NCBI GenBank assembly: GCA_964036195.1
Contig: OZ038452.1
Location: forward strand, 29,213,785-29,277,784
DNA from: Sphaerolaimus hirsutus
Taxonomy: Eukaryota; Nematoda; Chromadorea; Monhysterida; Sphaerolaimidae
Direction: 5' to 3'
DNA length: 64,000 nt
The notes beneath the pieces are model-generated. The model worked only from the letters and a program-made list of their open reading frames with translations. It was not told where the DNA came from and ran no database searches. Both the position numbers and the translations under genes were made by a program. Below are positions 1,600 through 22,750 of the stretch, in pieces; positions within the stretch are counted from its first letter, which is position 1; every line of letters begins with the position of its first letter.

Positions 1600-1916
1600 G
1601 CGGCCGGCTGGCGCGTCTACGGCACGGGCGAGCACATCTGCCTGGAGAGGGTGCGCGATTGCGGCAGCGACAACTGCGCCGTGCTGCGCGTGCGCCTGCG
1701 CCGCTGGACCGTCGCCGCCGTGTGCATCGAGGCCGTGGGCGTGCAGGGCGCCGTGGCGGCGACGACGCGCGTCGTGGCCGCCAAGCTGCTGCCCACCTGC
1801 CTGCGCACCACCGCCGGCGTGGGCGTCCTGCCCAAGATGGCCGTCGACCGGGCGCACGTGACCCAGCTCCTGCTGCAGTTGTGGCCCCGGCTGCGCGCGG
1901 CCACTTCGCGACCCAG
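1600..1916 (+). CDS. HECTD1: HECTD1 exon A (first plus-strand exon in window)
   Basis: It starts after the acceptor ttgtctcag in phase 0 and ends in phase 2 at CCCAG|GTGCC. It encodes about 105 residues beginning AAGWRVYGTGEHICLERV. Frame and phase fit the next exon exactly, but I could not align this exon to a definite HECTD1 segment; the KLLPTCLRTTAGVGVLPKM stretch may match a helical region after the ankyrin repeats. Earlier exons must lie left of the window, or elsewhere if the scaffold is misjoined. Confidence 0.6.
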
Positions 1917-4900
1917 GTGCCTATCTCAGACCTTGATAAGTGCACCGTGAAATGTCAAATGTTATGCAAAGTGTCAAAAAGCATGGAAAATGCCCTGCAA
2001 CTCGGTTGACATTTTCCATGACGTTTGACACTTGACATGACATTTGACATTTTACAGGGCATTTCACAGGGTCTGGGACTGCCCCCAGGGAGTCTGTCGA
2101 GCGGCTGCACTCGGCCTGCAAGCGGGCGCTGGACATCCAAAGCGGCGACGCGGTCGCTTGTCTGGACGATCTGCGCACGCTGCTCGAACTGGTCGCCGAC
2201 GAGGGCGCCGTGTCCATCTACGAGCTGGCCAACTGCGACGCGGCCGCCTCGCTGGCGCACCTGTTCAAGTGCATCTGGGTGGAGCGCGAGAAGAGGGGTC
2301 CCATGAACGACGTGTTTCTGCGCGCCGGCTCGCACGCGTTCGCCGCCGCCGGCTCGGCCGCCAAGACGACGCGCGCCCGCAAACTGGTGCCACTCCCAGA
2401 CCCTGTAAAAGACTGTAAAGTGTCAAAGACCCAGCAAAATGCCAGGTGTCATGTGAAAGATGATGTCAAGTCGCAAATGTCATGTAAAAGACCCTGTAAA
2501 GTGTCGTGTATCCAAATATTATTTTATCGTATCCAAATCTTATTTTTTTGTATCCAAATCTTACTTTTTGACATAAGATTTGGAACCAAAAACATAAGAT
2601 TTGGATACAATAAAAGAAGATTTGGATACACTTTACAGGGTCTTTCACATGACATTTAACACTTTACAGGGTCTTTTGCATGACATCTGACATTTTACAG
2701 GGTCTTTGACACTTTACAGGGTCATTTACAGGGTCTGTGAGTGCCCCTGGTCGTCCGCTTGGTGCGGCTGCTCGAGGCGGTGGCCGACCGCCCTCTGGCC
2801 GCCATTCAGTACGACGCGCCCGGCGGCAGTTCGTTTTCGCTGCAGCTGCTGCAAAAGAAGCTCAGGTTTACGATGCACTGCGACCATCCGGGGGCTGTGA
2901 AGCCGGAACAAAGTTGGTGCTATTTGTAAAACGGAAAATCTGTTGTCATTATCGATGGCGATGGCAAACACTCTGGAAAAAGTGTTTAAATTTTTCGAAA
3001 ATCACTTTTCTATAATAATTTCCGATTATTTCGCGAGAACAGTATTCGCGTTTAGTTTTTTAATTTTTGGATCTACTCTTCGAACTTTCTGGAATACTTT
3101 TTGAATTTTCGAATTTTTTGGAAGACTTTTGAATTAATTTTAATTGAAATAAAAAAATCGGTTTTTAAGTGTTTTTCTCTCATTGTGGGATAAAAATTCG
3201 AAAACTGCAAAAAAATCTTTCAGGCATTTAAAAAACGTGTTTTAAAATTTTTCTTGGCCATCGTTAACTGCCACAAATTTCAAATTGTTTGATGAGAACG
3301 ACAACACATTGCAGCCGACGACAAGGGCGCCTCTAAAGGTGCGGCAGACAAGGAAAATTCGTCGTGCGTCTATGACGTGTCAGGCGTCGTCGTAAAGGCG
3401 GAGCCAACGGCCACCCAGCAACAACTGCTCGCGCTCATCGAGGCGATCGCTATGAAACCGTGGTACTCTGTGCCCCGCACTCAGTTGGAGTATGTGAAAC
3501 AGGTTAGCAACTCGTATCCATTTCTTGTTACTTGAGTGTGCTCGGGTTTGTACGAGACATAGTTTTCTGAACCAGGGCTCTTAACCGGAAAGCAACATTT
3601 GTATGGAAACGGAACATTGCAGAAAACAGAAAGGAGGTGGAAACACACAGAAAAATTGCCGGAAAATCAACGGGAAAAACGGGGGGAAAATAAGCGGCCA
3701 GAAATCGGAAACGGAAAATTTTGCTTTCGGAAAATAGTTAGAAAACGGAAAGTTGACACCCTAGTCGAGACTGAAAAATTCCGATATTTTGCACGACTCC
3801 CGTTCTAACGATAGCAAAACGATGACCAAACTTGCCTCCCATTTTGCAGGTAACCGATCTGCTGCCGGGCAAGGTGCTCGAGTTCCGCTACGAGCGCGAC
3901 ATGGACAAGAACGGCATCCTGTTCTGGATGGGCAGCAACGGCGCCACGCTGTCGCACTGGGTGAACCCGGCGAGCGTGGGCCTCACGCCCGCCACCAGCA
4001 GCGACGGGCCCAGGCACTTGCCCTACGGCCAGCCCAGTCACGTGCTCGGCCGAGATCCAAATAATATTTCCAATTGCCACACTTCCGATTCCAAGTGAGT
4101 TATTAGATTCGGTGATATGTGAAGTTGGGAAACGTAAAATTGTTTTTTAAAAGACGGGGCAAACCGTGTTTATATATATAATAAAAAACAAGCCAAATTT
4201 TTTAATACTTTAACAGATATTTTGCAACTTTTTGAAAATTCTGACATACTTGTATTATATGTTGACTCAACCATATTTGGAACTTCTTGAAGAACTTTTT
4301 TGAACTTTTTTTATTTTTCAAAAACGTGTTTAAAAATATGTATCGTGAAAAACAGGGTCGTTTTTCCATCCGTACTCCAATTAACAATGTAAACTATGCA
4401 TATTGTCTCCCGCAGACGCGCCTACATCGCGTTCGACCTGGGCGTGTCGGTGGTGCCGACGGCGTACACGCTGCGCACGTCGCGCGGCATGGACAACAGC
4501 GCGATGCGCACCTGGCACGTGCTCATGTCGGCCGACGGCGAGCGCTGGCGCCGCGTGTGGGTGCACGCCGACGACGAGTCCCTGTCGCCGGTGGCCGGCG
4601 CGACCGCCACCTGGCACCGCCGTCTGGCCGCAGACGACTGCCCCACTGCCGCCTACCGCTACGTGCGCATTCAACAGCGCGGACCCAATTCTTCGCAGTT
4701 GGGTCATCAGATGTCGCTGGCAGGCTTCGAGATTTATGGCTACGTCGTTGGAGCTTTTACTGGCGATCAGTTCACGAAAACGTTAGCTTGGCGTTTTTTT
4801 TAGTGAGTGGTTTTGTGCTCTGGATGCCTGGAGGAGGTCATCAACGTTTTGGGATGGAAAAGTAGACGTAGGGATGAAAAATAACGTTCTTTAGGGACCT

Positions 4901-7338
4901 CAAAAGGTGGTTGCAAAAAGTCTGTTTGGTGTGCCGTGTAGTTTCGGAAAGAATAAATTTTGAAATCTAAAAAATATCAGCTAGATCTAAAAACTGCTTA
5001 AAAAGTAAAATCTATTTTTTTATGATCCTAATGTAAATAGGGTTCAATCTTGATTCCGTGAAGAAGACTTCAGTAATGTTATGAGGGATGAAAAATAGGT
5101 TTTGATTTTAAAAATACAGTTTCCACCATAAGATTTAACAAAATAAGTCGTAAAAGATCAAGTGCCCCGCCCAGTCTTCACCGTGTACCTACCGCACGCT
5201 CTCAGCGTGAACGACGTGCTGCCGTCGCACATCGCCGCGGACAAGGTGGCGGGCACGCCGCCGCACTACGGGTCGGGCACGCCGAGCTACGAGGACGAGC
5301 CGGCGCAGCAGCAGGCGGTCGTGCCGCAGCAGCACATCGACGTGACTGGCGCGGTGCACACGGGCGGCGCGGCGGGCCGCAGCTCCATCGGCGCGCACAT
5401 GGTGCAGCTGCTGCGGTCGCAGGTGCGCGTCGGCGGCGCCCCCGGCAGGCAGAGGCCGGCGGCCGCCGCGCGCACGCCCGCCGCCAGATGGTACGTGCTT
5501 GTTGCTGTATAAGTTGTCCAGTCTAAGGTGCATAGCTCTGTTTATCGAATATCTGAATATTCGGAAATCTGTGAGATGTGCGCATTCGCTGTCCGGGTAA
5601 CGATGGCATACAAAATTGTTAAGTTTTCGATTTTTTTTGCACGAATAGAAAAAAACATTCAAAAATCGATATATATTTATCTAGAAAAAAATCGGAATTT
5701 CGAAAAGTGTTGATGCATATTTCAGGTGACAGGGACGTATCCAGGATTTTTGAGCGGGGGGGGCTGCTTGTTTACGGAGCCCGGCGAACGGGGGGGGCTC
5801 AGCCCCCCCCCCCTAAAATTTTTCCCTATATAGGGACGGAAAGGCGTTTTGCGCTAGCGCCATACAAAGGCGCCACACCATGGCGTTATTGGCGTTGGCG
5901 CCAGCGCCAGGAACCGCTTTATATGTATGTAAATATGCATACATATACAGCGAAAGTCGCAAAAATATGCTCATTTCCGAGGATCTTTGTTTACAGGGAC
6001 CGATCCGCTGAAAATACAATGCATCGGGAAGACATTGCGCGCTTGCGCGCAAAATTTTTGAGAAACACAGAAAAATATACATGAAAAGTTGCATTTTCCG
6101 GGACTTTTTAGGTCTCACCCCGGGAAGGGGGGGGGCTGCAGCCCCCCCCGCCCCCCCCTGGATACGTCCTTGTCAGGTGATGATTATGTCAATTTCCAAT
6201 GGATCTACCGTATTACCTCGAATTAACCCCCCCTTGAATTAAACCACCCCTCGAAATACCCCTCCTTAAATTCGGCTGAGGAAATAATAAACAACCCCCC
6301 TCGAAATACCCCCCTAAAATTGAGTGTAAAGAGAACGTACATGACAAATACCGCAGTTTGTCATCTGTACAATGCAGAACACACGTTAAAATGATGATTG
6401 AGTGACATGAGGGGGGCAGGGTTTATGTGTATATATACAGTTATGTATGCCTATAAGCACACATAATTACATCTATGTAATTTTTTGATTTTTCTACGTC
6501 TGAGTATGGGTAATCTCCGAAAATTTCTGGCGAAAAAATAGACCCCCCTCGAATGATCCCCCCTCAAATTTTGCTGGCGAAATTATAAACCCCCTGGGGG
6601 TATTTCGAGGTAATACGGTATGTATAGCTGCAGAACAAAAATGTGCAGATGTAACAGCGTGGAAGGCTGTTGAACATGAAAGTGTATTGAAAATTCTGCA
6701 TAAAAATTCGAAAATGCAATAATTTGTTGCAAATAATCGAAAAGTAATAAAAAAATATTCGCAAATTCGGAAGGTAATTAAAAAATTCGAAAATTCAGAA
6801 AAGTCGATTTACAAAAATACTTAAAAAAATTTAAGACTTTTTTCCCAGAGGGATTGTCATCATTCGTGTTTGGTTAGGTTATTAGTACGGTAAGACCAAA
6901 TTTCTACGCACACGTAGATAATTTGATGATATCCAGCCGAGCGACCGCGCATTTCCGCAGGGTCGGCTCGCAGTCCGGCCGCGGCGTGTCGTCGCGGCCG
7001 GCCGTGCTGGTCGACTGGTCCGTGCTGCAGGCGGCCGCGTCCGCGTCCACGTCGGCCTCGTGGCGCGTGGGCGACCGCGTCATGAAGGCGTCGCACAAGC
7101 GCATGCTGGACCTGCTGAACGCGAGCGAGATGCGCGGCCCGCTGCCCGAGGCGGCCGCCTCGTTCAAGCCCGACGTGGGCACCGTCGTGTCCGTCACCTC
7201 CGAGGGCGTGTTCGTCCGCTGGGACGGCGGCGAGTTGAGCACGGCGGCGATCGCGGCAGAGTCGCTGTGCGCGCCGCCGGCCAACGCGAATGCTCAGCGC
7301 ACCGCTGCCGCTGCGCACCCGACAGTCACGTCGTCGAG
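1600..7338 (+). CDS. HECTD1: HECTD1-like E3 ubiquitin ligase, middle part (8 exons, partial)
   Basis: Exons are 1600-1916, 2089-2386, 2750-2912, 3315-3502, 3850-4094, 4416-4781, 5206-5490 and 6961-7338, about 746 codons in one frame. HECTD1 is a large animal HECT-type ubiquitin ligase. The order here matches the family: helical segment, a SUN/galactose-binding-like domain (exons 5-6, with KNGILFW, WVNP, NLPYG-like LPYG and FEIYG), then a MIB/HERC2-like segment (exons 7-8, GTVVSV and VRWDGG). The start, ankyrin repeats and catalytic HECT domain are not on this strand. N-terminal exons lie at 10.4-14.4 kb in the opposite orientation. The exons are much richer in GC than the introns. Two introns (2 and, in the other half, 3) are CTG-flanked introners with uncertain splice sites. 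Confidence 0.85.
1917..2085. mobile_element. Introner A: inverted-repeat element forming an intron, CAG target
   Basis: A short element (GTGCC... to ...GGGACTGCCCC) is flanked by CAG on both sides (1914-1916 and 2086-2088). Its interior is a long imperfect palindrome of TGTCAAATGTCA-type motifs. Removing GTGCC...CCCCCAG (1917-2088) joins exon A phase 2 to exon B phase 1 and keeps the frame (..RP-R-ESVERLH). The element supplies the donor GT and the duplicated target supplies the acceptor AG. Confidence 0.85.
2089..2386 (+). CDS. HECTD1: HECTD1 exon B
   Basis: It reads ESVERLHSACKRALDIQSGD, then DDLRTLLELVADEGAVSIYELA and on to TTRARKL. This matches the HECTD1 helical segment containing the family pattern LIVLLKDENTISPYEM. 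The start is set by the AG of the duplicated CAG. The end is inferred at CTG|GTGCC because the conserved residues continue directly in exon C. Reading through would append introner sequence. Confidence 0.8.
2387..2746. mobile_element. Introner B: 360-bp element in HECTD1, CTG target
   Basis: The ends GTGCCACTCCCAGACCCTG and CAGGGTCTGTGAGTGCCC are flanked by CTG at 2384-2386 and 2747-2749. The interior has TGTCAAATGTCATG arrays plus an inverted pair of TATCCAAATCTTA units also seen near 25.2 kb and 46.3 kb. Exact removal joins ..RKL to VVRLVRLLE as in HECTD1, but would make a GT-TG intron. The last AG inside the element followed by in-frame sequence meets TGA. Confidence 0.8.
2750..2912 (+). 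CDS. HECTD1: HECTD1 exon C
   Basis: It encodes VVRLVRLLEAVADRPLAAIQ, then YDAPGGSSFSLQLLQKKLRF, aligning to the HECTD1 segment with the pattern RKLIAVLE..LP..LYDTPGS..LQIL.RRLRF. The end is placed at A|GTTGGT because it gives phase 1, which is what exon D needs. The donor is weak, so the exact end is uncertain. Confidence 0.75.
2959..3263. mobile_element. Small transposon with AATTTTCGAA motif in HECTD1 intron
   Basis: The left end CGATGGCAAAC and right end GGCCATCG are inverted repeats matching a family with TAACGATGGCAAAC ends (copies near 42.1-42.9, 49.3 and 51.9 kb). The interior is made of AATTTTTCGAA and AAGTGTTTTTT units. It fills most of the intron between exons C and D. Confidence 0.6.
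3315..3502 (+). CDS. HECTD1: HECTD1 exon D
   Basis: The acceptor is acattgcag and the donor CAG|GTTAGC. After a Lys/Ser/Asp-rich start (DDKGASKGAADKENSS), the segment VVVKAEPTATQQQLLALIEA and MKPWYSVPRTQLEYVKQ fits the family pattern [25 protein letters not shown]. Phase 1 at the start, phase 0 at the end. Confidence 0.85.
3578..3763. mobile_element. Truncated GGAAAACGG-array transposon end
   Basis: An array of GGAAAACGGAAA units ends at the inverted-repeat terminus GTTGACACCCTA, the end found intact at 59742-60241. Only this end is present. It lies in the HECTD1 intron between exons D and E. Confidence 0.6.
3850..4094 (+). CDS. HECTD1: HECTD1 exon E: start of SUN/galactose-binding-like domain
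   Basis: The acceptor is attttgcag and the donor CCAA|GTGAGT, phase 0 to 2. It reads FRYERDMDKNGILFWMGSNG, WVNPASVGLTPATSSDG and LPYGQPSHVLGRD, closely following HECTD1 (F.HQHDFDENGIIYWIGTN, EWVNPA, SSEGRNLPYG). This is the best-conserved stretch of the locus and anchors the identification. Confidence 0.95.
4095..4415 (+). other. HECTD1 intron E-F, no element recognised
   Basis: About 320 bases of AT-rich sequence with a short TATATATATAATA run and a pyrimidine-rich end (tattgtctcccgcag). I see no inverted repeats or coding sequence. Confidence 0.6.
4416..4781 (+). CDS. HECTD1: HECTD1 exon F: second half of SUN/galactose-binding-like domain
   Basis: It encodes AYIAFDLGVSVVPTAYTLRT, SRGMDNSAMRTWHVLMSADG, HADDESL, ATWHRRL and YRYVRIQQRGPNSS..LAGFEIYG. 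All landmarks of the HECTD1 DOC/SUN-like fold are present (FAIDLG, P.AYTLRH, ALRNW..Q.S.DG, THVDD, RHVRI, LSGFELYG). The donor C|GTTAGC gives phase 2. Confidence 0.95.
4782..5205 (+). other. HECTD1 intron F-G, no element recognised
   Basis: About 420 bases of AT-rich sequence ending in a pyrimidine-containing acceptor (taccgcacgctctcag). No convincing repeat ends were seen. Confidence 0.55.
5206..5490 (+). CDS. HECTD1: HECTD1 exon G, linker to MIB/HERC2-like domain
   Basis: Phase 2 to 2 between ctctcag and TG|GTACGT. The product is low-complexity (His, Gln, Gly, Ala-rich: HYGSGTPSYEDEPAQQQAVV) and contains MVQLLRSQVR, which resembles the RRLVRSQVLKYM helix that precedes the MIB/HERC2 domain in HECTD1. 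The linker is longer than I expect for the family. Confidence 0.75.
5730..6172. mobile_element. hAT-like transposon inserted in HECTD1 intron
   Basis: The ends CAGGGACGTATCCAGG and CCTGGATACGTCCTTG are flanked by the exact 8-bp duplication TCAGGTGA (5722-5729 and 6173-6180). The interior has long G- and C-runs and GGCGCC-type palindromes. It is the same family as 144-1514, without that copy's nested insertion. Confidence 0.9.
6208..6618. mobile_element. Tc1/mariner-like MITE with CCCCCTCGAAATA arrays
   Basis: Inverted ends CCGTATTACCTCGAATTAA are flanked by TA. The sub-terminal regions are runs of CCCCCC(T)CGAAATA units. The interior shares sequence with the copies at 39104-39528 and 43526-43950. 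No ORF is present. Confidence 0.8.
6961..7338 (+). CDS. HECTD1: HECTD1 exon H: MIB/HERC2-like segment
   Basis: The acceptor is atttccgcag and the donor AG|GTGACT, phase 2 to 2. It reads VDWSVLQ, WRVGDRVMKASHKRMLDLL and VGTVVSVTSEGVFVRWDGG, consistent with the MIB/HERC2 pattern GARVIRG..W...GTVTG....WIDVTWD.GG. The fit is divergent. The next exon is not found before the 7967 gap, so the gene is cut here. Confidence 0.8.
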
Positions 7339-10184: not shown

Positions 10185-10330
10185 GTTTCCGGCATCGGGA
10201 TCGGGATTGGGGTCACGGGATCGGATTTGAAAATTTTTGGGATCGGGATTGGGACAGGAGTCTCGGGATCGGGGCCGCTAAATCCCCGCTAAGATTCTCG
10301 ACATTCGGAATCCCGTTTGAACCCTCCGTG
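10185..10330. repeat. GGGATCGGGATTGG array with TTTGAACCCT end
   Basis: GGGATCGGGATTGGG units finish at AATCCCGTTTGAACCCTCC. That terminus is the TAGGGTTCAAACG inverted end used by the GATATCG elements, but joined to a different motif. Single-ended here; related left ends occur near 31605 and 35590. Confidence 0.55.
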
Positions 10331-10384
10331 CCATCCCTAGTTCCTCCTACCCCCGACGTTTGCACCCCCCAGCAAACAGCTTAC

Positions 10385-10724
10385 CTTCCATCGTACTGCC
10401 GGACGCGGCCGACTGCTGGCCGGCGCGTCTGAGCGCCACGGCGGCGGGCGTGAGGCATGCCGCCGGCGCCAACGTCGGCTTCACGTTGCCGCCGGTGCCC
10501 AGACTGCAGTTGAGCGCCGACCTGCCCTCGAACACGAGCACCAAGATCAGGTCGATCAGCCGCAGGGCGTCGGTGCACGCGCGGTCGTCCGCGCCAGTGA
10601 GACTCGTGTGCAGCGCGGCCGGCGCCAGCTTGTGCGACACGATGCGCTCGCCCGCCGCCGGGCTGTGGCGCGCCAGCGAGCACAGGATCGACAGCGCCTT
10701 GGAGATGCACGTGGCCGAGCGCAG
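10385..10724 (-). CDS. HECTD1: HECTD1 exon 6
   Basis: The acceptor is ccatcgcag and the donor GAAG|GTAAGC, phase 0 to 1. It includes SKALSILCSLARHSPAAGER, SHKLAPAALHTSL and ACTDALRLIDLILVLVFEGR, matching STIVSLLSTLCRGSP, LLRSELPDSIESAL and [21 protein letters not shown]. The alanine-rich tail precedes the expected ankyrin repeats. Confidence 0.88.
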
Positions 10725-13700
10725 CTGCGATGGACGGTTGCCGGGAAGGTGTTCGAAAGTGAAAAGTGCCAAACAGAAAACCAACGACCATGTACCTGTA
10801 GTCATGTAAACCCGCTAGTCATGTAGACCCGCCAGTCATGTATTTTAAGGGGGGGGTTAAAAGATTGAGGAATTAGCGGCAGCGTGTTTACATGATAAGT
10901 AGAGCGTTTACGTGTTTACAAGTAGAGCACATAGTTTTGCACTATTTTGATGACACTGCTCAGATAAAAAAATTTAAATTTCACGAACCAGTTGTCGTTT
11001 GAGTTTTTTAAATTTTTTCATTGAGCAGTGTCATCAAAATAGTGACAAAAACAATGCAAGTGCACACGCACTGCGGCCCGCGCCATGTACTCTACTTATT
11101 ATGTAAACCCGCTGCTGTAATAATGTAAACCCCAATACATAACTAGCGGGTTTACATGACTAGCGAGTTTACACGACTAACGGGTTTACATGACTAGCGG
11201 GTTTACAAGACTACGTCAAACAAACCATAGGCGGAGAGGTGTGTATATCATTCACTTCAAGGCCGAATTTATTCAACCAATCATTCTCGGCGCCAGCTAC
11301 ATTCTCGCCTTGACCGGGGCGCGAGTTCGATTTGCGCAGAGCGATCAGCGCATTGAGCAACATGTCCACGAGTTGGCCACTTTCGTCCACGGCGGCCGGA
11401 TCCAAAGTGCGTCTTGTGAATCGATGCAGTACGGTATCGAGACACGAGATGGCAGTTTCGGTCATCTGCGACAGTGTTAATCGATTTAATTTAAAATATT
11501 TCAAAATGCCTAGTGCATACATACCAGAAATTGTACATTTTTTAAATTCAGTTTCCACCCTCTGAATTTTGTAAATACGATTTTTTATCACTTGAAAAAA
11601 GCAAGTACGGGGAATCCCTATTTGCGGGGGACCTCACACCAAAAAACCCCTCCACCATTGGAGACCCCTGACTTGCGGGTGTTCTATACATAGGTTTTTA
11701 GAGGTGTAGAAAAAGGCAGAAAAAAGCTAATATAGTGAAAAACGTGTATATATATAAATACATATATAGCTCCAAATGTAAGAGGCGAAAGTATAAAACT
11801 AGCGGTTTTGAACGAAAATTGGGGAAAATATCTGGCAGCGACAATTGCAGCGACAACAACAAAAAACCGCCCAAAAATACCTGCTGATCATCCGACTGGG
11901 CGAGAGTGGTGAGCGACTTGGCACAGTGCCCAACGGCGGCCTCGTCCAACGGGTCGATCTTGGCGCACAGCGCTGCGACCACGCTCATGGCGGACACGAC
12001 GGCGTCGCGGTGCATGTTGCGCGCGTGCAGACACACGAAGTCTGTGGACACGCGTAGGCCGCCCGCCGCGTAGAACTGCTCGCCGTCGAGACTGACCAGG
12101 GGGCAGTCCCAGACCCTGTAAAATGCCCTGGAAAATGTCAAATGTCACGCAAAGTGTCAAAAGTCATGGAAAATGCCCTGCAAAATGGCAACCGAGTTGC
12201 CATTCTGCAGCGATTTTCCCATGACTTTAGACACTTTGCATGACACTTGACATTTTACATGGCATTTTCCAGGGTCCGGGACTGGCACCAGGCGCTCGAG
12301 CATCTTGACGCACTGTATGGCGAGCTCCTTGCCGTCGCGGTCGTGCACGTCGGCGGCGCCGAGGCGGTCGCACAGCGCCTTCACCAGCCCCTTCACTTCG
12401 AGGATGCGCCGCGCGTTGTCCGTCGCCATGCCCATGTACTCGAGAGCGCGCGCGCCGCCAGCTGCGAGTGCGAGTGACGCGGTGAATTTGAATGAAATAC
12501 ATGCGTGTTTAGAAGATTTATTATTTTAATACATAAATATAATTATGAATTAATATATAAAAAGAGCAGTATTTTGATACATACATATTTATTTTGATGA
12601 TACATAATTATTTTTAATACATAAATACAATAAATTTTTATTTTAATACAAAAATATACATATGGGAATCTCCGTTCCAAAAGTTCACAAGCGCCAAATC
12701 CAGAAAAATCGAGTTAAGCGTGGATTTGACCTCCACGTATAGTTTTTCACATTTTAGAAAAAAATCAGCGTTATAGTCCATTTCGTTCCCGAGATACAGT
12801 GGTACCGATTTTCTAAAAAATCGCAATTTTCACATCGAAAGTTTACATATCCATGACCAGTCCCCTATGAAAAACAGGACTTTCACATCAAAAATGCATA
12901 AATCCATCTCAGACCGCCGGAGTTTCATATCGAAAATGCACATATCCAAAAAATTCCATTTCCAAAATTTCATTTCGGAGCGGCCGCAAAGAGCTGGCCA
13001 GAATTTCCATACAAAATAAAGTTTCATTTCCAAAAATGCATACGTGAATTTCCAAATCTATTTTGCACTATAAATCAAATATACGTGTATATATTGATCT
13101 GAAAATTTAGGTAGATGTACTTTTAGACACAGGCTTAGTAGTGTCATTCCTTTTTGCCTGTGATGCACCGTTAAGAAGTTATTCAACATTTAATTTCAAA
13201 TGTTCAGATTTGTTCCCAATTTTGGGTGACTTACAAAATCTCACATAACTCCCTGAATATTTCCCGGCCAACGAAATTTGTGGTTACAAAAATTGTAGAG
13301 AAATGTCGGATCTATCTGAAAATGGCAAGGCAAGCTTTGTCGCCCAAACATAGCGCCGTCGGGCCATCGCCAAACTTTAAAATGCGATTTTGAAAAATTG
13401 AAAATTGTGGATACATGCGTTTTTGGAATGAAACTCCCCATATAGAGTGTGTTCAACTGTAATGAGCTTTATAGGCTGTAATAGGCTTTTGAAAAATATT
13501 CTTGAAAGTTTTCAATGCCCAGGCCAGAATAAAGCGGCCTAGTCGCTAGGGTGGCAAACGGTGAATCTCTAGAAATATCTAGTGTGTTTATTCGCCACGC
13601 CTACCCGAGAAGATTTTTCTAAGATTTTTTAAACTTTCCGAGAGAAAAACATGGATGAATTAGTGTCTTTTAATTATTTGGACCGCATGTTTACAACAAA

Positions 13701-14388
13701 TCCTAAAACAGAAAGGTCGGTGTCTATCTGTTATTTATATTTTTCGTCGACAAAAATCACATCGCAGAAATGTTGGCCCCCTCGATATAATTAAATCTGG
13801 GGCGGCGTCAATTGAATTTGAAATTACATAACTTTACCTCAACGATCTTGTCACTGGCTACGTTGTCGATGAAAGTCTGACACAACGGAGGCAGAAACTG
13901 CCGCGGCGGAAAAAGCTCAAAGCATCTGTCTATGTTGTCGCAAATCAACAACTCGGTGCACAGCGTTTCCAATGCGTTTGCCTGCGAACGTGGGTCACAA
14001 ATATAACTCTTTTCAAGTAAAAGTGTCTCTGTTAAACGAAGATGTTAACTGGAAATTTTATGCATGAGAATCATACCGCAGAGAAAATTTCCACACTAAG
14101 TCGAACCATTGGTGAAAATTGAAAAATGTCCAGTCATTTTGATCCACCGAATTTCAAATTTTTACATTGGCTTGTCCCTGCCATGTTTGAGCGACAAATT
14201 TCATCCACATTTTCGACACCTTCAACCAATACATTTAACCCCCCCCCCCCCACGTAAACGACACAACAAAACCACCCCCCCCCCCCCCGAAAAAACCGCA
14301 CCTGCATTTCCCTCACGCCGTCGGTGGCGTCGCGGCTCACGCCGGACATGATCCACTCGATCAACGTGTCCCTGTCCACGCCCATCAT
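10385..14388 (-). CDS. HECTD1: HECTD1-like E3 ubiquitin ligase, N-terminal part (6 exons, partial)
   Basis: Exons, in order of translation, are 14388-14302, 13981-13838, 12459(12461)-12289, 12096-11881, 11465-11301 and 10724-10385, about 374 codons. The sequence starts MMGVDRDTLIEWIMSG, like the HECTD1 N-terminus, and follows the armadillo-like helices of the family to the segment just before the ankyrin repeats. It ends at a strong donor G|GTAAGC with no next exon found to the left. The ankyrin region is missing, and the following plus-strand segment (1.6-7.3 kb) faces it. Intron 3 is an introner. Intron 2 has a phase problem at its acceptor. Confidence 0.85.
10798..11215. mobile_element. 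Inverted-repeat element with TAGCGGGTTTACATGAC motif
   Basis: The ends GTAGTCATGTAAACCCGC and GCGGGTTTACAAGACTAC are inverted. Several CTAGTCATGTAAACCCG units sit at each end, with a central palindrome (GATGACACTGCTCA / TGAGCAGTGTCATC). It fills most of the HECTD1 intron between exons 6 and 5. The target duplication is not clear. Confidence 0.65.
11301..11465 (-). CDS. HECTD1: HECTD1 exon 5
   Basis: The acceptor is ctgtcgcag. It reads MTETAISCLDTVLHRFTRRT, LDPAAVDESGQLVDMLLNAL, like [26 protein letters not shown]. Two phase-0 donors are possible, AAT|GTAGCT (end 11301) or GAA|GTGAAT (end 11256). I prefer the first without strong evidence. Confidence 0.8.
11590..11880. other. HECTD1 intron 4-5, repeat remnant
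   Basis: Contains GGGGACCTC...CATTGGAGACCCCTG, resembling one end of the G-run family near 9780, then AT-rich sequence. No complete element. Confidence 0.4.
11881..12096 (-). CDS. HECTD1: HECTD1 exon 4
   Basis: 72 codons: VSLDGEQFYAAGGLRVSTDF, MHRDAVVSAMSVVAALCAKI, EAAVGHCAKSLTTLAQSDDQ. This matches [29 protein letters not shown] and CVESLSSLLKHEDHQ. The donor CAG|GTATTT is good. The 5' boundary is inferred from the introner edge and the protein alignment. Confidence 0.85.
12100..12288. mobile_element. Introner C: 189-bp palindromic element in HECTD1, CTG target
   Basis: Flanked by CTG (12289-12291 and 12097-12099), with ends GTGCCAGTCCCGGACCCTG and CAGGGTCTGGGACTGCCCC on the gene strand. 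The arms carry TGTCAAATGTCATGCAAAG motifs and an inner GGCAACC/GGTTGCC-like stem. Exact removal restores CVKMLERL-VSLDGEQFYAAGGL, the same length as HECTD1, but implies a GT-TG intron. Confidence 0.85.
12289..12461 (-). CDS. HECTD1: HECTD1 exon 3
   Basis: It reads ARALEYMGMATDNARRILEV, KGLVKALCDRLGAADVHDRD and GKELAIQCVKMLERL, matching ARAITYYLDV...TRRI, GAIKALCNRL and LAEQCVKVLEL. The only AG nearby (cgcag, start 12461) is two bases out of frame with exon 2. An in-frame start would be 12459, after GCAGCT. The end at CTG|GTGCC is set by the introner. Confidence 0.8.
12663..13440. mobile_element. Transposon with GTTTCATATCGAAAATGCA units in HECTD1 intron
   Basis: The ends GGGAATCTCCGTTCCAAAA and TTTTTGGAATGAAACTCCCC are imperfect inverted repeats. 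The interior repeats TTTCATNTCNAAAATGCANA and shows homology to the interior at 38.3-38.9 kb, whose element spans 38286-41328. It lies in the intron between exons 2 and 3. Confidence 0.6.
13441..13837. other. HECTD1 intron 2-3 remainder, nothing recognised
   Basis: About 400 bases of AT-rich sequence. I looked here for a micro-exon that would repair the exon 2/3 phase mismatch and saw none. Confidence 0.45.
13838..13981 (-). CDS. HECTD1: HECTD1 exon 2
   Basis: 48 codons between gttcgcag and GAG|GTAAAG, phase 0 both ends: ANALETLCTELLICDNIDRC, FELFPPRQFLPPLCQTFI, DNVASDKIVE. This matches HECTD1 ([36 protein letters not shown], DNVLE) residue for residue in length. It was missed by simple start-to-stop ORF calling because it is short. 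Confidence 0.92.
14302..14388 (-). CDS. HECTD1: HECTD1 exon 1 (coding start)
   Basis: It encodes 29 residues, MMGVDRDTLIEWIMSGVSRD then ATDGVREMQ, against the family start MADVDPDTLLEWLQMG..ERDMQ. Two adjacent ATGs (14388 and 14385) could start it. The donor is ATGCAG|GTGCGG. Long C-runs (about 14240-14290) follow in the intron. Confidence 0.88.
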
Positions 14389-15447
14389 TTTGTAGGGCCG
14401 TTCCACGTTAACGTCACACGTGGGGGACTTGAAACGTTTCGTAGCTTGAGCCCCACGCGTAAAACTGCGTATTTAACGTGAAAAACGTTGTAACATAACA
14501 CGTTTGGATCGAGTGGAGAATTGAAAAGAAACAAGGATGGGTCTGTAGAGAGAAAAACAACTTGAGATTACTATCGTCCGCAGGAAAACACCGGATATGA
14601 GAAAGAATAATTATCTTTTTGGGGAGACGGTCGAATGACGTCATCATAGAATATAATAAATTCGCGACGTTAGAACAACCAATTTTCCACAAGTATTCCA
14701 TCTTGAACGAGATTTCTCATTAGATAAATATATTCACGCCGTACTGTCACTGTACAGTCACTGTAAATGACGAAAGTTTATGACTGCTTTTAAAAAGCTC
14801 TAAGTTATGATTGATGACTGTAAGTTATGTTTTTTGGCGAGTTTCCAACTACTAGCTGCGTGAGCGTAAATTGCGCAGCTTTATGATCAAACCGGCAAAT
14901 CAAAAGACGGAACCAAGCTTACCTGCGTTCGTAAATTGAGCGGACTCGCCGCTCGGATCATCAGATAGAACACACATTACAAATTTTCACTCACGTTACC
15001 GAAGTATTTTTGCTTTACATACGCGTACGTGCGCATACAAGTGCGCGCAGAAATTCCTGTGCGTATTGGCACCGAGCCATGTGCCACTGTTACTCCGCGC
15101 ACTCGCGCCAGCCTACATCTTAAAACTGCACGTGAATTTTGCTAGGCCGGGCATGTCGTTTTCCCTATACAAACTTGTGATTTTTACGAACCTTTCGAGG
15201 CCCACCACACGCTTAAAAATGGGAATTGTGGGTCGAGCGTACGCACAGGGGGCTAAAATTATGTGCGTTCTCTGGCGAATGTAAGAAATCGTAGAAATTT
15301 AACTGTCGTTATTGAGCTCAACCACAAAAAAGGCGAGCCTGGCGGAACGTACGTGATTTTTGGGGTTAGCGCTAGTGGGCATTTACACGAAAGTGGGCGG
15401 AGCTTACGCCGACGGCCGCATGCAAAGCAAAATATCTGCGCGCACTG
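14389..15447. other. Upstream of the HECTD1 start; no gene seen
   Basis: This should hold the 5' UTR and promoter of the minus-strand HECTD1 half, but I recognise no definite promoter element. There is a tandem CACTGTACAGTCACTGTA near 14745. GC-rich repeat-like sequence fills 14990-15440. Confidence 0.4.
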
Positions 15448-22556: not shown

Positions 22557-22750
22557 CGGGCACACCGAGACCCTGGAAAAGGCATGTAAAAAGCCCTGCA
22601 AAATGTTGACTGTCATGCATTGTGTCGAAAGTCATGGAAAAATCCCTGCAACGTATGTCTGCCATTTTGCAGGGCATTTTATATGACTTTAGACACTTTG
22701 CATGACATTTGACACTTTACAGGGCATTTTACAGACTCTGGGACTGGCAC
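22557..22750. mobile_element. Introner-class element outside genes, CAG target (empty site known)
   Basis: It sits between two copies of CAG (22554-22556 and 22751-22753). The surrounding repeat has an uninterrupted inverted copy at about 21425-21510 (..GGTTGTCCAGGGGTGTT.. on that strand), which shows the empty site and proves a 3-bp duplication. Its arms carry TGTCATGCATTGTGTC and related units. Confidence 0.85.

Follow-up and report, generated by a model that had tools for sequence, protein, structure and literature searches.

The origin of introns is an old open question, and there are few live cases in animals so far. In the stretch of Sphaerolaimus hirsutus DNA analysed here (64,000 nucleotides; the window), a short repeated element lies exactly between two coding exons of a gene resembling HECTD1, and we asked whether insertion of this element made the intron. 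The family has two mirror targets, CAG, which gives a ready acceptor, and CTG, which gives none, and so offers a natural experiment that bears both on how strictly the spliceosome needs AG and on the improvement of a poor intron; intron birth and loose splicing become testable in an animal. The best joint explanation, to which we assign a probability of roughly 0.8, is that the elements would be introners that insert at CWG and are removed as GT-AG introns and, less securely, as GT...TG introns that later gain AG.

An element that coincides with a putative intron

Copy 1 (Table 1) reads as a near-palindrome, from GTGCCTATCTCAGACC to GGGTCTGGGACTGCCCC, between two CAGs. The first-pass annotation had described an element that starts with GT and has a duplicated CAG on either side, and a direct reading of 1914-2088 agrees with this. 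Its further claim, that removal of the element with one CAG restores the frame between the exons, also held: 1600-1916 and 2089-2386 joined into one open frame that reads CGA CCC AGG GAG across the join, the split codon taking 2 nt from the upstream exon and 1 nt from the downstream exon, whereas read-through with copy 1 left in place met stops in all three frames. When copies 1 and 2 were both removed, the frame was open from 1600 on to 2865. The left end of copy 1 differs from the family left end by 4 mismatches. Two ordinary introns in the window, 3502/3850 and 4094/4416, join their exons in frame as GT-AG; exon edges apart from the element ends were picked by eye, and the join 2865/3315 chosen in this way is out of frame.

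Table 1. Coordinates of the element copies and host exons in the window
Feature	Position	Strand	Determined by
Upstream coding exon, HECTD1-like, ends ...CGACCCAG	1600..1916	+	Open frame; left edge set by eye at AG
Left target-duplication copy, CAG	1914..1916	+	Read directly
Element copy 1, 169 bp, GTGCC...GCCCC; left end is the putative GT donor	1917..2085	+	Read directly
Right target-duplication copy, CAG, the putative AG acceptor; inferred intron 1917-2088	2086..2088	+	Read directly
Downstream coding exon, GGAGTCTG...AAACTG	2089..2386	+	Exon joining
Element copy 2, same gene as copy 1, CTG target (2384-2386, 2747-2749)	2387..2746	+	Sequence reading
Next coding exon, right CTG to donor (CAG, then GTTTAC) set by eye	2747..2865	+	Frame continues from 1600-2386 once copies 1 and 2 are taken out
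Element copy 3, HECTD1-like N-terminal exon, CTG target (12289-12291, 12097-12099)	12100..12288	-	Sequence reading
Further family copy, CTG/CTG, flanks not called coding	22557..22750	-	Sequence reading

The assignment of the host gene to HECTD1 was upheld only in part. A 498-aa query, a hand-made string of exons that includes the out-of-frame 2865/3315 junction, gave a Pfam match to Sad1_UNC barely above the cut-off (6.6e-5), and the N-terminal part gave a match to a TRIP12-type domain below the cut-off (3.3e-4), other N-terminal pieces yielding weak matches only. The exons had no matches in the PDB, and a protein search with the 498-aa hand-made fragment, whose length is not in the range accepted for full-length relatives, returned no HECTD1 homologues at E up to 1e-5. 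Beyond the two domain matches, the gene is presumably HECTD1. Its N-terminal exons are present twice, once per strand, at 10300-14472 of the window (minus) and at C3:29200000-29202250 (L113, L114; plus), the latter copy apparently without one (upstream) exon. Since both copies are partial and they lie on opposite strands, an intact host gene may be lacking. The plus-strand copy was considered as an empty site and rejected, as the upstream exon is absent and another intron, with the end CCCTAG, lies at the exon edge that the element occupies in the minus-strand copy.

Ends, targets and copies of the family

The 17-base end quoted in the annotation proved abundant: a search of the 348-Mb genome found 827 + 806 exact occurrences, against 0 for the reversed control. 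In the window there were 8 matches with at most 3 mismatches, where 0.04 would be expected by chance, and one copy can give two such matches. The family left end is GTGCCAGTCCCAGACCCTG and the right end CAGGGTCTGGGACTGCCCC; apart from the sequence close to their tips the two form inverted repeats, so that only the left end starts with GT.

We sampled 116 elements from the window and 108 fetched loci, some of them overlapping, with repeats counted once. Median length was 183. CWG stood on both sides in 99 of the 116 copies, a rate favoured by the choice of most loci through exact CAG or CTG left ends, and the two sides matched in 81 of the 99. The target classes (left/right) were CAG/CAG in 46, CTG/CTG in 35, CTG/CAG in 14 and CAG/CTG in 4, with the left-hand proportions set by that same design and the 17 copies without CWG on both sides excluded. 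Genome-wide, exact left 22-mers numbered 686 with CAG and 587 with CTG. The target is CWG, that is CAG or CTG, and not the 3-bp CNG that had been proposed.

Longer copies (L064, L094 and 2387-2746 of the window) have in common an additional internal segment around GTATCCAAATCTTA, which may mark a subfamily. Other repeats in the window, at 1-1500 and 5740-5960, consist of CGATATTCGATATT arrays and palindromic stretches of G-runs and C-runs.

Copies inserted in coding exons

Flanks were scored independently by a codon model whose training set was limited to the HECTD1-like exons, and copies from the window were not counted. Under exact removal of the element, the two flanks agreed in phase in 22 of 22 copies at 90-nt flanks, in 16 of 16 at 120 nt and in 25 of 29 at 60 nt, where one third would be expected; the remaining 4 of 29 pairs disagreed. 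Taking GT-first as sense, 19 copies were called coding in sense only, 1 in antisense only and 3 in both (p 4e-5), and the lone antisense-only copy, L107, is weak. Frame agreement and orientation both use the HECTD1-trained model; a self-trained model, used below, is partly circular.

The orientation bears on the idea that the copies are precisely excised from DNA in body cells by a transposase, rather than from RNA. Such excision would fit the exact restoration of the target and would treat CAG and CTG alike. The element mPing is of the Harbinger type. Sites of mPing excision are reported to be repaired precisely (PMC4561436). Excision from DNA should, however, ignore orientation, and a ratio of 19 sense to 1 antisense is not what it predicts; we hold it to be highly improbable.

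Protein domains were then sought across the joins. There were 332 open joins, of which 146 passed length filters and 70, picked by codon score, were scanned against Pfam; the excess of sense over antisense joins among those scanned (45 vs 25) comes partly from this selection. Matches across the junction were obtained for 10 elements, all within the 45 sense joins tested, and for none among the 25 antisense joins tested. They were Rcd1 (L090), Cyclin_N (L058), E1_dh twice (L057), Sugar_tr (L092), Cation_ATPase_C (L033), Oscp1 (L017), AMP-binding (L095), Xan_ur_permease (L059) and Calpain_III (L093), two of the ten, the second E1_dh and Calpain_III, being below the curated cut-off. An eleventh join-spanning match was to Srx, a nematode family, at L053. 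By target, the 11 cases comprise 3 CAG/CAG, 6 CTG/CTG and 2 CTG/CAG, with two joins in one gene (L057). Two family copies interrupt the exons of this BCKDHA-like gene, the one with a CAG and the other with a CTG target; the CAG join shows a one-residue gap relative to PDB relatives, four residues past the join. In a Na,K-ATPase gene (L064, CTG/CAG), the alignment with the best PDB chain runs through the join for 92 residues and is gapless.

The annotation had read copy 1 as an introner, and this reading gains from the sampled copies, in which the same geometry, frame agreement, sense bias and join-spanning domains recur. Because copies lie in exons, with agreeing frames, a GT-first orientation and domains that run across the joins, we conclude that, as judged from sequence, the feature at 1917-2088 is probably an introner, whose insertion would make the intron and whose ends coincide with the putative intron boundaries. 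An ancient intron at this site, later invaded and replaced by the element, is highly improbable: 1917-2088 consists purely of element plus target copy, and the same exactness is seen at unrelated exons.

Insertions at CTG provide no AG

The annotation had also held that insertion into CAG by itself creates an intron, from the GT of the element to the second CAG. This would hold at CAG sites, but close to half of the insertions have a CTG target. There the inserted block ends exactly in TG instead of AG, and sliding the ambiguous boundary yields no AG either. Canonical splice sites were accordingly not found in every copy, CTG/CTG copies ending in TG. Published introners include GC and GA 5' sites, and canonical sites are hence not a strict requirement for an introner. 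Copies 2 and 3 of the window both have a CTG target, which precludes an exact GT-AG intron; at copy 2, which has no AG at its exact end, the GT-AG pairs that keep the frame either cost 27 nt or retain element sequence.

The exonic frequency of CTG/CTG copies is not clearly below that of CAG/CAG copies. The exonic share was 9 of 35 for CTG/CTG and 11 of 46 for CAG/CAG under the HECTD1-trained model, whose training exons carry three of the counted copies, and 10 of 35 and 16 of 46, respectively, under the partly circular self-trained model. The clearest single case is a CTG/CTG copy in CNOT9. A single occurrence of this gene was found in the genome, split into two parts by an element whose length is not a multiple of three. 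The best database match to its protein is 88% identical, so that the database showed no record from the same species, and the nearest named relative is Plectus sambesii; for COX1 the nearest match was 91% identical, and the named relatives among the 120 matches listed were near 70% and mostly arthropods. Together with the Srx match, these comparisons pointed to the animal probably being a nematode. Against PDB 9jnl, the CNOT9 protein aligns gaplessly over 120 residues that span the join, which falls between ...SLGVIGAL and VKTDEQEV...

Could the CTG copies instead be spliced as GT-AG introns at shifted sites, with a few residues changed? For 14 CTG/CTG copies (one of them, the second L053 copy, noncoding) we listed the GT-AG alternatives that keep the frame and contain no stops, with donors from -45 to +75 nt and acceptors from -75 to +48 nt. 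In this range there was no in-frame alternative for 3 of the 14, L059 and the second inserts of L057 and L017, and at the remaining copies the alternatives lose or add residues. In-frame AGs do lie close by in L046 (6 nt), L093 (9 nt) and L067 (12 nt), as shifted splicing would have it. In CNOT9, the nearest alternative would remove five residues where the sequence is identical to that of 9jnl, and an ACAG within the element (TTTTACAG), at a distance of 19 nt from the exact 3' end, is out of frame with the family donor. Splicing at shifted sites is thus improbable as an account of the CTG copies.

The CTG copies might otherwise be young, mostly recessive knock-outs carried in one haplotype, so that only CAG copies would be working introns. 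Slightly higher nearest-neighbour identity in coding CTG/CTG copies (87.4, n 9) than in CAG/CAG copies (85.9, n 11) is in keeping with this, as are two features of the right-hand target given below. It is harder to reconcile with the similar exonic frequency of the two classes, with the single occurrence of CNOT9, and with the CNOT9 copy itself: among 40 genome copies scored out of 2013 candidates, its best full-length relative is 91% identical, with 92% over part of the length, and the copy is therefore not obviously new. We consider this reading unlikely, though it is one to be taken seriously. That CTG-target blocks are instead removed exactly, as GT...TG, we place slightly below an even chance.

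Change from CTG to CAG at the right-hand target

Under strict ends, which 108 of the 116 copies allowed, the right target of CTG-left copies (n=52) was CTG in 31, CAG in 10, another single change in 3 and further off in 8; that of CAG-left copies (n=49) was CAG in 41, CTG in 2, another single change in 2 and further off in 4. With copies more than one change away left out (the 8 and the 4, respectively), 10 of the 13 single changes of a right CTG led to CAG, where one ninth would be expected (p 6e-8), and CTG-to-CAG occurred in 10 of 41 copies vs 2 of 43 for CAG-to-CTG (p 0.012). Genome-wide, the CAG:CTG ratio at exact ends was 686:587 on the left and 815:557 on the right (p 0.005; ends were counted, not copies). 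Excision from DNA should not favour CTG-to-CAG among the right-end changes.

Nearest-neighbour identity in the sample was about 81% for CTG/CAG copies vs 85-87% for CTG/CTG copies, which fits an older, derived state of the former. It is this identity that argues for the greater age, as mismatches at the ends were hardly higher (1.70 vs 1.55). Copies with both ends exact, counted by pairing positions over C1 and the initial 9.53 Mb of C2, were CAG/CAG in 13, CTG/CTG in 13, CTG/CAG in 2 and CAG/CTG in 1. The mostly unmutated state of these exact-ended copies (13 CTG/CTG vs 2 CTG/CAG), like the frequent CAG at the right end of CTG-left copies, is what knock-outs would lead one to expect. The bias from CTG to CAG suggests that TG is the worse acceptor, and hence that recent, harmful insertions may be found among the CTG/CTG copies.

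Predicted folding and a proposed mechanism

The intron RNA of copy 1, with its CAG, is predicted to fold into one long hairpin (-87.5 kcal/mol, z -12), as is that of the CNOT9 copy (-108.4 kcal/mol, z -17). In the CNOT9 fold, four 5'-terminal and seven 3'-terminal bases are unpaired, and with so few unpaired bases the donor and acceptor would lie side by side. The ACAG of this copy is inside the hairpin stem. By the usual consensus, GTGCCA is a poor donor.

We propose the following mechanism. A short non-autonomous DNA transposon would insert at CWG and duplicate the 3-bp target. Its left end brings GT, and with a CAG target on the coding strand the duplication closes the inserted block with AG, so that the spliceosome could remove the element and one target copy as a GT-AG intron. 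At CTG targets the block would, less securely, be removed exactly as GT...TG; the hairpin would bring the intron ends together and may aid this removal, and ACAG may help recognition while the exons are ligated at the TG or AG further downstream. TG-ended introns would later tend to gain AG when T mutates to A in the target copy on the right. In its full form, the proposal is that hundreds of transposon-born introns are constitutively GT...TG, that the target and not the element sets the acceptor, that the hairpin apposes the ends and that selection converts TG to AG. This we offer tentatively, as marginally more apt to be wrong than right; if true, the birth and the maturation of introns could be read in one genome.

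A conserved U2AF1 gene is seemingly present twice, perhaps as two haplotypes, and there seems to be in addition a second gene, diverged but with zinc-finger-like stretches retained (C14:3032343-3038004, C720 and C16:15183258-15191469; L116-L122). This second, diverged U2AF1-like gene may take part in GT...TG splicing.

Comparison with known introners and non-canonical introns

Literature listings on introners and intron gain by transposable elements, on introners and Harbinger elements, on introners in nematodes and on introners since 2022 showed no report of this family. The NuwaI group of PIF/Harbinger-like (PHIS) elements, found mainly in animals, makes a 3-bp CWG target duplication, a feature common to NuwaI and the present family (PMC4482050). 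The genome contains 163 matches to DDE_Tnp_4, and at four such loci (3.6 kb each, a span that may miss the ends) no family end within 6 mismatches was present that would point to an autonomous partner. A uniform Harbinger-like transposase family occurs at L109-L112 and many other places, and most of the matches listed have 4 in-frame TGA codons; in L111, the only one read, these lie in an intron-like stretch.

Gozashti et al. (2022) describe introns formed by non-autonomous DNA elements with target duplications and/or inverted repeats, among them a Chrysochromulina introner with a 4-bp duplication and without inverted repeats that takes its 5' splice site from the element and its 3' splice site from the target; most introner families leave mRNA length unchanged, and the survey detected introners in just two animal groups (PMC9860276). 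Our family resembles these introners at CAG sites and differs in that nearly half of its copies are without AG and a 3' change from CTG to CAG is seen (PMC9860276). Amoebophrya introner elements are alike in having direct repeats of 3-5 nt, hairpin-forming inverted repeats that join the exon edges, and non-GT-AG ends (PMC7789003). Amoebophrya is, however, a protist, and the ends of its introner elements are highly varied, whereas here the element would bring GT and the target dictate AG or TG (PMC7789003).

In human, TG acceptors are rare, alternative only and within 28 nt of an AG, and Szafranski (2007) concluded that they cannot work constitutively (PMC2374985). The nearby AG recalls the ACAG 19 nt upstream in the CNOT9 copy, and it is from these two observations together that we propose a role of ACAG in recognition; the human sites are only alternative, whereas here TG would be the sole exact site of many introns (PMC2374985). 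In Fritillaria borealis, 95% of introns are non-canonical, introner transposons with weak sites are a possible source of them, and the non-canonical splicing accompanies a duplication of U2AF (PMC13326754). Fritillaria is likewise an animal, one with introns that largely escape GT-AG, and it differs from the present case in that the two ordinary introns of our window are GT-AG (PMC13326754).
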